64,000 nt of DNA. Origin: Vulcanisaeta souniana JCM 11219 (GTDB lineage: Archaea > Thermoproteota > Thermoprotei > Thermoproteales > Thermocladiaceae). Positions 13,414-37,027 of the stretch are shown piece by piece. Within the stretch, counting starts at the first letter, position 1. Every line of letters begins with the position of its first letter. The notes beneath the pieces are model-generated. The model was not told the DNA's origin and ran no database searches. It was given only the letters and a program-made list of their open reading frames with translations. Location of the stretch: the NCBI RefSeq assembly GCF_026000775.1, contig NZ_AP026830.1, forward strand, positions 620,001 through 684,000, given 5' to 3'. The position numbers were made by a program, and so were the translations under genes.

Positions 13414-13884
13414 ATGCGTAGAGATGTTGCATTGTTAATTGCGTCAAGGGCCATTAGGAGCCTGGCCTTTGGTTACTTAACCTTCGTAATACCACTGTAT
13501 TTAAAGTCTATTGGATTCTCGGCAGCCATCATCGGCCTCTACTTCCTTGTTACCTCAATATCCTCAGCAACCCTGGTACTTGCCTCTGGATTTCTCGGTG
13601 ACTTAATAGGTAGGAGAGACGCCCTCATCATAATGTCAAGTCTCTTCGTAATTTCCATGGCCATCTTCAGCGTGACCAATAATAAGGCCCTACTCTTCAT
13701 AACGTCAGTATTCGGCACAGCCACAGGAAGCGCCGGTCTACTTAGCTTCAAAATTAAATTAACACGATATACCTCATCACTCGGCAATGTATTAAACATT
13801 AACTACTACAACTACTACTACGCCCATGCCCGAGGAAACTTTATTCATGGCACATCCGTATTGGCTTCCGTGCCTCGTCCATAG
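13414..13884 (+). pseudogene. Truncated major facilitator superfamily transporter
   Basis: The first 110 or so residues are a good MFS N-terminus with about four membrane segments and the loop 2-3 motif GFLGDLIGRRDAL. After residue 115 the sequence stops looking like a transporter: it becomes a polar, tyrosine/asparagine-rich tail (NYYNYYYAH) and ends at residue 156, whereas a complete MFS protein has about 400 residues and twelve helices. The promoter (CTCCTTTAATAAG, about 29 bases before ATG 13414) looks intact. A deletion or insertion probably removed the rest. The downstream DNA to 14350 holds no recognisable remainder. A functional four-helix protein is unlikely. Confidence 0.7.
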
Positions 13885-14350
13885 TAATTCAATATTAACT
13901 CTTGCTCATATGCTCATATAATAATTAAATTTATAATTTATAAAGTTTAGTGTTAATGTTTAGGTGATTAAGAGCACTGTGGTTTCATGGATTCATTATG
14001 TGGATTAGCGGCTTTAATGTACTTGTAATGTTTATGGCGTTAATGATTAGTGCTGTGGTAACAGTATGACATAATTACTCGCTAAATAACTCGATTAAGC
14101 ACCTTATTACTCTGTCCAAAGTTACAGCATACTCGCTTACTTATCTCCGCATATACACTTCACCTTAACGGTCTTTGGCTCGTTACTTAGTGCTTTTACC
14201 CTTCCTAATTATTCTGATTTATCTATTAAGTACCTCTAAGTGGTAATACTAAAGCACTCCATGCTTCTTTCAATTAAGTACTTAAATTAATTCAGTACCG
14301 GTTCATCAGTGGCTTATTAATCACGTTGTGAGTATTACTTAGATATTTCC
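13885..14350. other. AT-rich gap between truncated MFS and PaRep2b genes
   Basis: No convincing gene is seen. A TATA-like ATTTATAATTTATAAAG lies near 13929-13945. After it, a short hydrophobic reading frame ending with TGA at 14067-14069 encodes a single membrane-like segment (ATG 13998, 23 residues). This may be a chance ORF or a scrap of the missing transporter. Confidence 0.4.
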
Positions 14351-15853
14351 ATGACTCTCAGCTTAAGAATATGCTGGGGTAAAAGGACAAGGGGCTCGGA
14401 GAGACTTAAATGCGGTGAGGAGATCGAAGACCCTAAAATAATTGAGGAGGTAAATAAATTAATTAATGAGTTTTTAGCGCGAGTCGAGAGGTACAGAGAC
14501 GTGTTATTAAACGACGAGAACACACCCTTTGATTATGCGATTAATGCTCTGAGTGATTGGTTACTGGAAATCAAGGCAAGGGCTAATAGAGGTGATGATG
14601 ATATTACTAGGTTGAGGAAGGCGGTATATAAAATAGGCATGAAGATGCTTAAATTGGTTAATCGAACAAGGGAGGGTTGGCTAAAGATTTATCGAAAAGA
14701 GCTTAAGGAATTAATTAAAAAGCTAAGAAGCGGTGAGGTGAAGATTGCAATAAGCGGAGATCCGATCAACGCTGCTAAGTCATTCATAGCACACCTATAC
14801 ACGGAACACCTAGCAATTAGTGTAAAAAGGACCGCTAAGTCAGGTAGTATAATAATTAGATTAACCTTGAATAATCTTAAAGGTATTCACATAGATATAC
14901 CGAGATTCTTTGATGATTTGCTTAGACCAATGCAGTATGGTTTAATGCTCACGGATGGTTCAATCCATGAAAGAGGCTATCCCGTGATGGGCACAAACTA
15001 CCTCTGGCAGGTCATTGCTTGGCTAATGGCTTGGCCTGGCAAAAATTATATGCGCATACATAACTTAAACATTAATGAAAATAGCGATGTGAAGATTACG
15101 TGGCAATTAATGGCTATCGGGCATAAGCTCGGGAGTAAAGTAAAGATTGCCAAGGAGGTACTCGCGTTAAATAACGATGGATTCGCAATGTTTCTGCTCT
15201 TCGCAATATTAGGTGATGGTAGCATCAACACCAAGGAAAAGATAATTATGCTCATATTAGGTAAATCAAAGTATGAGTTGTGGAAAGACATCATCAAAAG
15301 AATGATGGGTTTAAACTTTAAGGATTACGATAATAAGTATAAGAAAGAAATTAAAGTCTATTCGTCAAGAGCTGTCACTCTAGCTCAGAGTTGGCTTAGT
15401 GAACCTAGGGTTAGGACTTTGATTGAAGATCTAAGCCGACTGCCTGATGCGGAGAAGCTTAGGAACTTAATCGAGCTAACTAAAACGAGGATTAAGCCGT
15501 TGGGTAGGTCGATGGTTGAGGTCATTAGCGGCGTATGGATGAACACGCACGTGAAAGATGCTGGTCGTGTTGAGTTAAGGATTAAGCGCAGTAGGCTAGA
15601 GGATGCGGTAGCGATCCAGGATAGACTTAGAAAAGCTGGCTTTAACGCTAGGTTAAGAGGGCATAACGGCAAATTCGAAGTCTATATAAATCAAGACGAG
15701 GTAAATAAACGCCCAGAGTTAATTATCAAGGTTTGCGAGGTATTGAAAAGTATGTATGAGGAGACATTAAACGAAAACAACATTAAGAGGATAAAGAAGA
15801 TAATAGGGGCAATGACTAGGTTTAACTGTCAAGACTGCACCCAAGGCCCATGA
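14351..15853 (+). CDS. PaRep2b-family protein
   Basis: The 500-residue product resembles PaRep2b, a repeat protein family first named in Pyrobaculum and multicopy in Thermoproteales. Family-like segments are YGLMLTDGSIHERGYPVMGT near residue 200, LWQVIAWLMAWPGKNYMRIH just after, and FLLFAILGDGSIN near 285. The repeated DGS patterns recall LAGLIDADG-type homing endonuclease folds, which is only a structural suggestion. The first 150 residues are charged and helical. The gene sits beside a truncated transporter and a TnpB gene, consistent with a mobile or recombining patch. The function of the family is not established. Confidence 0.7.
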   Translation: MTLSLRICWGKRTRGSERLKCGEEIEDPKIIEEVNKLINEFLARVERYRDVLLNDENTPFDYAINALSDWLLEIKARANRGDDDITRLRKAVYKIGMKMLKLVNRTREGWLKIYRKELKELIKKLRSGEVKIAISGDPINAAKSFIAHLYTEHLAISVKRTAKSGSIIIRLTLNNLKGIHIDIPRFFDDLLRPMQYGLMLTDGSIHERGYPVMGTNYLWQVIAWLMAWPGKNYMRIHNLNINENSDVKITWQLMAIGHKLGSKVKIAKEVLALNNDGFAMFLLFAILGDGSINTKEKIIMLILGKSKYELWKDIIKRMMGLNFKDYDNKYKKEIKVYSSRAVTLAQSWLSEPRVRTLIEDLSRLPDAEKLRNLIELTKTRIKPLGRSMVEVISGVWMNTHVKDAGRVELRIKRSRLEDAVAIQDRLRKAGFNARLRGHNGKFEVYINQDEVNKRPELIIKVCEVLKSMYEETLNENNIKRIKKIIGAMTRFNCQDCTQGP

Positions 15854-16060
15854 GTTTTCAAAAACGAAATTTAATAATTTCAAGAATCAAGAAATTTAAG
15901 TCTCAGGGCTTGTCCGTAGGGTTCCGTATGGCCTGGGTAGCACGATAGCAGGCTTGTTAATGGATTATGCAGAGTTTTCGTTATCAATGATCCTAGGGCT
16001 GAATCCTTTTTCATGTTAATAGAAATCTTTTTACATTCATTTATTATCAACTGAGGTTGT

Positions 16061-17134
16061 TCATTGTTGTTTTAGTCCTTTCAGGGCTATGAGGTATGCT
16101 GATGCCGTGTGTCTGTCTAACCCATACCTCCTCATCACCTCATCATGTTCTCTAGAATTTGATGTACCCTTTGGATTTGCCAGATACACTCTGAAACCGT
16201 ACTTCATAGCCATAACCAAGCCATGCCGTAACAATTCTCCTTTTGCAAATCTTGCTATCTTGCGATTTGCAATTCTATTCCTGCCAAAAACTCTCTTTTT
16301 AACGGCAAACAAATTCTCAAAGACAACAACACCAACACCATGATAGTAGGCATACCTAAGCAATTTCGAGAGTGCTTCAAGCCTCCTCGTCTTGGCTTTG
16401 TTTCTTGGGAATCCATGGGATGTCACCTCCGGGAACCACGCAGTCCCGGTGTCCCTTATCCTCCCGCACTTATCGACTATCACCATGTTTATCCTATCGC
16501 TGTTCAAGTCGAATCCCGCAACAAGGCTTCCCCCAGCCCCTCCCTTCCTAAAGAACTTTAGGTATAGCTCTAACGGCACAGAGAGGTGCAGATATATCCT
16601 ACCATCCCTAAACACTACTCTAGCCCCATAGCTAACCCTCTTCTGCCTAGCAAGCTCCACCAGTTCTGCAACTAGCGGTAAGTACTCTCTGCCGAATAAA
16701 GCTTTGAAGGTGAGCCATGAGCTATCGTAGGGATACTTAATCTTGACTACACCTACAGACTCTAACCTAATGTTTCGGTTTCCAAGCCTAGATGCTTCAC
16801 CATCGCTTACAATGAAAAGCCTCTTTATCTTGATATGCCTTGGATTGCCATTGCTATATTCACATCCTTCTACAATTGCCTTTGCAACCTTGTACGCTGA
16901 GTCACCATAAGCCTTGTTAAGCATTGACCTGAGTTCCCTGAGGATAGAGTTAGCATCTATGCCTTTGGCTATCATTCTTGTGGCGTAAAGTACCGCTTTC
17001 TTGAAATCATATGCCAGCCTAACTAACTTCATGTAGTCCTCCGACGAAATGGGGACTAGTCTACCGATAACGGTAACATACTTTATAAGTGGTGTTGCAT
17101 CAACCACATCATCACTCATCTGGTACTGTGACAC
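16061..17134 (-). CDS. tnpB: TnpB-like RuvC protein lacking the zinc finger
   Basis: TnpB proteins are RNA-guided nucleases carried by IS200/IS605-type elements. This 357-residue protein has the three RuvC acidic positions: D209 in GFDLNSD, E273 in VVFENL, and D340 in YGLDRHTASAYL. Between the second and third motifs the usual paired CxxC zinc finger is absent; NPKGTSNSREHDEVMRRYG occupies that place and no cysteine occurs after C223. The start is GTG 17134 behind a Shine-Dalgarno-like GGAGAGAGGTG, with a leader of about 130 bases from a TATA element near 17292-17302. No tnpA is nearby, and no GC-rich guide-RNA-like structure follows the 3' end. Confidence 0.85.
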   Translation of the reverse strand: MSQYQMSDDVVDATPLIKYVTVIGRLVPISSEDYMKLVRLAYDFKKAVLYATRMIAKGIDANSILRELRSMLNKAYGDSAYKVAKAIVEGCEYSNGNPRHIKIKRLFIVSDGEASRLGNRNIRLESVGVVKIKYPYDSSWLTFKALFGREYLPLVAELVELARQKRVSYGARVVFRDGRIYLHLSVPLELYLKFFRKGGAGGSLVAGFDLNSDRINMVIVDKCGRIRDTGTAWFPEVTSHGFPRNKAKTRRLEALSKLLRYAYYHGVGVVVFENLFAVKKRVFGRNRIANRKIARFAKGELLRHGLVMAMKYGFRVYLANPKGTSNSREHDEVMRRYGLDRHTASAYLIALKGLKQQ

Positions 17135-17289
17135 GTATTATCACCTCTCTCCTATGTAGATGTTGCATCTTCGAGCTGAGCCCCTTCGGTATGTATATGC
17201 ACAGTAGTCCGTGGCTCGTTTTCGAAATCCTAGCGTGAAACACGTATTCTTCAGGCATAGTTCTCTACACCACGAAGAATTACTACAGA

Positions 17290-17304
17290 AAAACTTATAA
17301 ACTC
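17290..17304. promoter_or_regulatory. Near-symmetric TATA element between tnpB and RNA candidate
   Basis: The sequence AAACTTATAAACT reads as a TATA box on both strands (ACTTATAAACT / AGTTTATAAGT). On the minus strand it fits the tnpB leader. On the plus strand it would start a transcript near 17320-17325, just before the GC-rich RNA candidate. Confidence 0.55.
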
Positions 17305-17321
17305 TTCTGTAAAAAGTGATA

Positions 17322-17475
17322 TTATAGCAGGGATGAACTCGATGAACTAGGTGAGGGGGACCGTGGCATGAACCGCTCTTCGCCGATGGGAGCACAGCTC
17401 CCGCAGGCGGGGGGCAGGGGATTGAGGAGCCGTGATGAACCCGAGGGTGGTCAAAACCACTCCCGGGCAAACGGT
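17322..17475 (+). ncRNA. GC-rich structured RNA candidate, omega-RNA-like
   Basis: This stretch is much richer in G+C than its surroundings and has no good reading frame. It begins about 25-30 bases after a TATA element. It contains a perfect hairpin GGGAGC-ACA-GCTCCC (17388-17402) enclosed by CGCC/GGCG (17381-17384 with 17406-17409). A long terminal hairpin pairs 17440-17451 with 17456-17467 around a CAAA loop. The motif GATGAAC occurs three times (17332, 17341, 17434), with a shortened ATGAAC at 17368. A terminal CCCG-type hairpin after GATGAAC is how guide RNAs of TnpB elements often end. Here, however, the RNA would diverge from tnpB rather than overlap its 3' end. It could also be the relic right end of another element, or an unrelated small RNA. 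Confidence 0.55.
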
Positions 17476-17515
17476 AGCATAGCATTGCTTGATCCGGTAC
17501 TTTACTACGTGTTCT

Positions 17516-17557
17516 TTAGGCGTTATGATAGTAAGTAAGTGAGTAGTTAGGCGTTAT
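17516..17557. repeat. Short direct repeat TTAGGCGTTAT
   Basis: TTAGGCGTTAT occurs at 17516-17526 and again at 17547-17557, 31 bases apart, just upstream of the cbiG promoter. It may be a regulatory repeat or a trace of an insertion; nothing else supports either reading. Confidence 0.35.
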
Positions 17558-36924: not shown

Positions 36925-37027
36925 GCGGGGGTGCCCGAGCCTGGTCAAAGGGGGCGGACTTAAGGTCATAGAATGAGAAATCCGCTGGCGAAGGCCTGCG
37001 TGGGTTCAAATCCCACCCCCCGCACCA
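36925..37027 (+). tRNA. tRNA-Leu (anticodon UAA) with 15-base intron, CCA encoded
   Basis: The acceptor stem GCGGGGG (36925-36931) pairs with CCCCCGC (37017-37023). The T arm GTGGG-TTCAAAT-CCCAC is perfect, and a long variable arm marks a class II tRNA. The anticodon stem GCGGA/TCCGC encloses CT-TAA-G; TAA is at 36961-36963. A 15-base insertion (36965-36979) follows position 37, the canonical archaeal intron site, leaving A38 at 36980. CCA (37025-37027) is encoded. Splicing by the archaeal endonuclease would give the mature tRNA. Confidence 0.93.

Follow-up and report, generated by a model that had tools for sequence, protein, structure and literature searches.

A probable divergent guide-RNA gene within a mobile TnpB element of Vulcanisaeta souniana

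Layout and boundaries of the element

The window analyzed here is a stretch of 64,000 nucleotides (nt) from the Vulcanisaeta souniana JCM 11219 genome (NZ_AP026830.1, positions 620,001 to 684,000). An element at about 15999-17474 contained, in this order, a left end, an inverted tnpB-like gene, a 48-amino-acid (aa) AbrB-like open reading frame (ORF), a candidate divergent promoter, an RNA candidate on the + strand, and a right end. The RNA stretch most probably encodes the omegaRNA-type guide RNA of a mobile TnpB element that carries tnpB in inverted orientation with respect to its ends, the RNA being transcribed from a promoter of its own. The features were assigned as follows.

15905-15998, + strand: left piece of a disrupted MFS transporter gene, whose right piece spans 17475 to about 17540, according to the contiguous orthologues L063-L065
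15996-15998, no strand: GGG of the target, adjoining the left side of the element and resembling a target-adjacent motif (TAM; consensus RGGG in relatives); about 15 copies have a left flank ending in RGGG(G), and the window was compared with the uninterrupted orthologues L063-L065
15999-16060, no strand: element left end, which agrees at 54 of 60 nt (90%; the alignment includes the flanking CTAGGG) with that of an autonomous IS607 element of the same genome
16061-17134, - strand: tnpB-like gene of 357 aa, RuvC triad intact, without a zinc finger, in the orientation opposite to the RNA (alignment A4, AlphaFold2, Foldseek)
17112-17258, - strand: candidate regulator, a 48-aa AbrB-like ORF that runs into the start of tnpB; an ORF occupies this position in relatives and is of the AbrB/MazE or ribbon-helix-helix (RHH) type in other members
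17284-17311, no strand: dyad TACAGAA-N14-TTCTGTA enclosing the TATA box, a possible joint promoter and operator for the two diverging transcripts, from the sequence; the dyad exceeded shuffles only in part of the relatives
17322-17474, + strand: omegaRNA-like guide-RNA scaffold; start estimated from TATA spacing, 3' end equal to the element right end (covariance model, homologues, empty alleles)
17332-17347, + strand: 5' motif of the RNA, GATGAACTCGATGAAC, near-invariant in alignment A3
17373-17418, + strand: central long hairpin (CCGCTCTTCGCC...GGCGGGG, tip GGGAGC/GCTCCC); helices 2-4, with 95.8-98.0% of cells paired; it corresponds to the region that Rfam Sso133 matches in Sulfolobales
17428-17475, + strand: terminal structure with the closing helix AGCCGT/ACGGT, a GATGAAC bulge, and the hairpin 17440-17467 with its variable tip (covariation; helices 5 and 6)
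17475-17494, + strand: flank DNA, would-be source of a 20-nt guide (target gene right after the insertion point), from its position at the element end and from TnpB biology

The boundaries of the window element were obtained from the intact MFS gene in genomes G371 and G395, and in G383 the gene was likewise uninterrupted across the junction. The original prediction had placed the RNA at 17290-17480; the RNA candidate was real, but its end was moved to 17474 (...ACGG) because the element ends there. The genome had three tnpB gene copies, each with the RNA upstream and divergent. The empty site of copy L003, GTCTGGGGGTGAGG, was present in G086 and G395 and slightly changed in G371. For the Sulfolobales copy L040, the empty site, CCTTTGCC followed by TTCCTCAAA, was exact and without duplication in G405, and the insert was also absent at this site from G403, G361, and G173. 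Moreover, the first 20 nt beyond the L040 RNA were identical to the sequence that immediately follows TGCC in the empty allele of G405. The junctions suggest a serine-recombinase GG core at the integration site; an exact 2-bp core was dropped, since the G-runs differed by 1-2 nt between copies.

The cbi genes start about 120 bp downstream, and a regulatory leader (e.g., a riboswitch) of these cobalamin genes, cbiG and following, was considered. Such a leader can practically be discounted, given that the RNA ends inside the broken MFS gene, other copies adjoin unrelated genes, cbiG is kept in relatives without the element, and no riboswitch family matches. A cobalamin riboswitch in particular was rejected, with no match in Rfam and with copies elsewhere that have no cbi genes nearby. 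The MFS gene itself was seemingly broken twice (13414-15998 and 17475-17540), and a 500-aa ORF (14351-15853) without a Pfam match separated its 5' part from the remnant on the TnpB side.

Fold, covariation, and recurrence of the RNA

The GC content of the RNA stretch was 0.63 against approximately 0.42 in the surroundings. The + strand folded at -68.8 kcal/mol (z = -3.2), with 1 of 200 shuffles equally good, in agreement with the predicted GC-rich and strongly folded RNA. The - strand fold was weaker (z = -1.5), and an RNA on that strand was rejected; covariation was run on the + strand only. The claimed TATA element (TTATAA, 17295-17300) was found upstream of the RNA, and the three GATGAAC repeats (17332, 17341, and 17434) and the additional ATGAAC (17368) were all recovered. 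The perfect hairpins were likewise present, namely GGGAGC/GCTCCC at 17388-17402 and GGGTGGT/ACCACTCCC within the terminal hairpin. The latter, described originally as long, does exist at 17440-17467, but its tip in the window is the short form of one that varies from 4 to 31 nt among sister copies.

The structure was supported by covariation. In the consensus of 13 close relatives, 94.3% of cells paired and the double-changed cells numbered 23, compared with 7.6 in shuffles; pairing dropped sharply once the partners were slid. For the 3'-terminal closing helix of the RNA, 64 of 70 were paired across 32 loci, whereas the permutation mean was 44.3 (0 of 10000 permutations reached the observed value). 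The helix changed from AGCCGT/ACGGY to GGGGT/ACCCC in distant relatives, and also to GGTGG/CCACT and GGAGT/ACTCT, with the pairing kept. The variable hairpin tip was an attractive guide candidate since sister copies differ most there and the tips are partly left-end-like; it was ruled out because distant relatives and the closing helix put the tip inside the scaffold. The tips of L003 and L002 resembled the left ends of their own elements in direct or inverted orientation. Between window positions 16055-17452 and L002 positions 286-1683, approximately 1 kb in the middle was 100% identical, whereas the left end and the terminal-hairpin tip differed, a pattern that suggests gene conversion or an exchange of ends.

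These data also bear on whether the stretch is a DNA end only, with the right-end hairpin and the palindromes as transposase recognition sites and the RNA as incidental. The IS607-like right end (...ACAAACGG), the left end in common with an IS607 element, and the differences of sister copies in hairpin tips and left ends would fit such a DNA end. However, conservation and covariation reached more than 150 nt inward, with the TATA box upstream; the mini-elements described below drop tnpB and keep the RNA; and a Sulfolobales copy matches a small-RNA family. A DNA end without a functional RNA is thus unlikely.

The covariance model of the RNA was searched across 397 Thermoproteota genomes and matched in 52 of them; 119 matches were examined. 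A listed tnpB lay within 2 kb on the 5' side of the RNA, in divergent orientation, in 38 of the 119, some of which are sequences used to build the model. The flanks of 61 further RNAs added eight divergent cases, five of them showing just the last 24 codons of tnpB and one just the last 17; the other 53 had no tnpB match, several of these having too little upstream contig and at least two having sequence gaps. The tnpB gene was divergent in all 46 loci where it flanks the RNA within the element, and the sole apparent exception (G367 C102) arose where a mini-element had inserted into a tnpB gene. Ten loci of other species were found by protein alone, and the RNA was divergent wherever the flank was usable and the gene was full-length; the protein-found loci with the RNA in the same place came from Desulfurococcales, Staphylothermus, Geoarchaeota, and Bathyarchaeota genomes. 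In more distant relatives, including Sulfolobales, the RNA was likewise divergent. Copies at the 3' end of a same-strand tnpB were sought among the tnpB-flanked loci, and none was found. The search of plasmids, phage records, and viral contigs found no relatives.

The recurrence beside tnpB, on the 5' side and divergent, strongly supports the predicted TnpB-type guide RNA upstream of tnpB and on the other strand. The canonical guide RNA overlaps the tnpB 3' end (PMC12817955), which would favor the right end of some other element, left over or rearranged, that came to lie beside tnpB by chance. This explanation, which the original prediction had offered in both forms, was not borne out, because the divergent layout recurs at every locus whose element has tnpB next to the RNA. 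The arrangement was the same in several orders and at all tnpB-bearing loci examined, and the empty sites show the RNA and tnpB as one unit; a chance neighborhood is therefore highly improbable.

Rfam family RF02814, Sso133 (Sulfolobus sRNA133), matched the divergent RNA in seven Sulfolobales loci with 52-100 bits (gathering threshold 44) the part matched being its central hairpin. The window copy had no match to Rfam Sso133, being too diverged. Because Sso133 is a known Sulfolobus small RNA, the match supports transcription of the RNA in Sulfolobales, as judged by homology. Rfam lists Sso133 as an sRNA, and the search of the literature within reach found no text tying it to TnpB; the correspondence proposes an identity for an orphan Sulfolobus small RNA. 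In addition, circular RNAs have been reported in S. solfataricus for IS200/IS605 transposases at their 5' end, with the strand not given in the text (PMC12558985), and they are compatible with a divergent guide RNA.

The TnpB-like protein, the IS607 relation, and the proposed mechanism

The TnpB-like protein had two cysteines and no CxxC pair, so that the description as zinc-finger-less was correct; a C-terminal zinc finger is common in TnpB but not defining. The RuvC triad D209/E273/D340 was invariant across 31 relatives. The AlphaFold2 model had a predicted local distance difference test score (pLDDT) of 89.9 and a predicted template modeling score (pTM) of 0.83, and the Foldseek matches of the predicted structure were Cas12k, Cas12f, ISFba1 TnpB, and ISDra2 TnpB. 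The DNA-binding-type ORF in the operon and the lack of a transposase of the element's own could point to an RNA-protein regulator, either TldR-like or domesticated in another way, as opposed to a mobile nuclease system. The RuvC site of TldR is inactivated, whereas the catalytic triad here is invariant, and the elements are mobile and multi-copy; domestication is therefore very unlikely. The earlier suggestion of a domesticated RNA-protein pair was not clearly upheld because the empty alleles and the other copies show mobility.

An ORF of 40-70 aa was located directly before tnpB or overlapping it in 29 of 33 loci. It was of the AbrB/MazE type in several members (PF04014, E down to 1e-10) and of the ribbon-helix-helix type in one, with a sub-threshold yet significant match (9e-5). 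The 48-aa protein of the window had no Pfam match and was 47% identical to an intermediate member. The guide and the nuclease may be jointly repressed by the AbrB-like protein. The operator dyad was rejected as a family-wide feature, since it was significant in part of the loci only.

The left end of the window element aligned with that of L098, an IS607 element of the same genome with a serine transposase and TnpB, at a local alignment score of 95 compared with 26 for the best shuffled sequence. The genome holds two IS607 copies elsewhere. The right ends were ACAAACGG in both IS607 copies and GCAAACGG in the window element. The left-flank motif was RGGG in about 15 copies and TGCC in the Sulfolobales copy with empty alleles; RGGG agrees with the G-rich TAM of IS607 TnpBs, e.g., 5'-GAGGG (PMC11061315). 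Mobilization in trans by an IS607-type serine transposase is likely, because both ends are common with IS607 and RGGG fits the IS607 TnpB motifs. The window element thus shares with the IS607 family the 90% identical left end, the right end ...AAACGG, and the G-rich target, but it is without the serine transposase TnpA and has tnpB in reversed orientation.

In TnpB elements, the omegaRNA is defined as ending, on its 3' side, at the right end, with the adjoining flank serving as guide (PMC10278001). Here, the predicted RNA 3' end falls on the right end of the element, so that the flank would supply the guide as in TnpB omegaRNAs. With tnpB in inverted orientation within the element, the RNA would arise from its own promoter instead of being cut out of the tnpB mRNA, and this promoter would be divergent from the operon of the AbrB-like ORF and tnpB. 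The predicted scaffold would end at the right end, and read-through of the transcript into the flank would add the guide. The guide would match the uninterrupted target beside the left-side motif (RGGG here, TGCC in Sulfolobales), the geometry on the strand opposite tnpB being left motif, element, RNA 3' end, and guide. TnpB would bind the RNA and cut empty alleles with it, and such cutting would favor retention of the element. Movement would occur via the IS607-type serine transposase in trans.

Several points weigh against the guide-RNA interpretation. The evidence on the window copy itself comes from its sequence and from structure prediction, and the Sso133 match in Sulfolobales covers the central hairpin only. 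No Pfam family matched the TnpB-like protein or any of its 31 relatives, and the NCBIfam TnpB models scored below their cut-off on it. The element contained only tnpB and the small ORF, with no transposase. Furthermore, the rejoining of the window junction was inexact, its left G-run being 2 nt shorter than the orthologues imply, and the L003 junction was off by one G within the G-run.

The TnpB-omegaRNA (reRNA) systems of IS200/IS605 and IS607 have in common with the window element the TnpB/Cas12 fold with the RuvC triad, a structured RNA that extends on its 3' side to the right end of the element and takes its guide from the flank, and a left-flank motif, G-rich as in IS607 TnpBs and with a candidate role here. 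The differences are that the RNA is divergent with its own promoter and does not overlap the 3' end of a same-strand tnpB, that the zinc finger is absent, that an AbrB- or RHH-like ORF is in the operon, and that guide-only mini-elements exist. The parts are known, and the system was classed as a variant of TnpB-omegaRNA elements with a divergent layout, a co-encoded regulator, and promoter-bearing mini-elements. The full-text literature, with several central papers outside reach, described no divergent TnpB guide RNA, co-encoded regulator, or promoter-bearing mini-elements, which is a weak indication that the divergent guide RNA is novel. For a type V CRISPR-Cas (Cas12) array, Rfam found no CRISPR repeat in the window. 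One Sulfolobales copy (L038, 3428-4025) directly adjoined a CRISPR array with RF01338 repeats, the array being outside the element.

Guide-only mini-elements

Among 54 tnpB-free loci with enough upstream sequence, 23 had the left-end motif of the family within 300 nt, compared with 0 for control stretches. The guide-only mini-elements delimited by these matching left ends were approximately 210-310 bp long and retained the whole RNA and the TATA box. The guide-only mini-element L105 (G367 contig 102) interrupted a tnpB gene belonging to a related family, and its guide would therefore be tnpB sequence. The idea of a trans-acting guide, raised in the original prediction, gains indirect support from the number of such guide-only mini-elements among relatives, while the window copy itself adjoins an intact tnpB.

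Standalone guide RNAs are known from the IscB omegaRNAs of Ktedonobacter and from PATE-type elements, in which guide copies occur without an adjacent nuclease gene. By comparison, the case here is a TnpB-type RNA carried as a promoter-bearing mini-element. Known TnpB guide RNAs are tied to the tnpB mRNA, which limits guide independence of the kind seen in CRISPR. A guide with its own promoter and nuclease-free mobile units would be a natural and testable case of guide-nuclease uncoupling; in heat-loving archaea, guide and enzyme would be genetically uncoupled much like in CRISPR systems. A broader proposal, which we hold as a tentative possibility, is that a Thermoproteota TnpB lineage has its guide genetically split from the nuclease, with promoter-bearing guides and TnpB co-controlled by an AbrB- or RHH-type repressor. 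The tnpB-free mini-elements would collect new genomic guides and be served in trans by one TnpB, and the dispersed repertoire might resemble a step towards CRISPR-Cas12. The family also gives leads to small hyperthermophile TnpBs (approximately 357 aa, without a zinc finger) with G-rich or GCC target motifs.

Elsewhere in the window, Rfam identified a 100-nt tRNA gene at 36925-37024, which was missed by ARAGORN and probably contains an intron.
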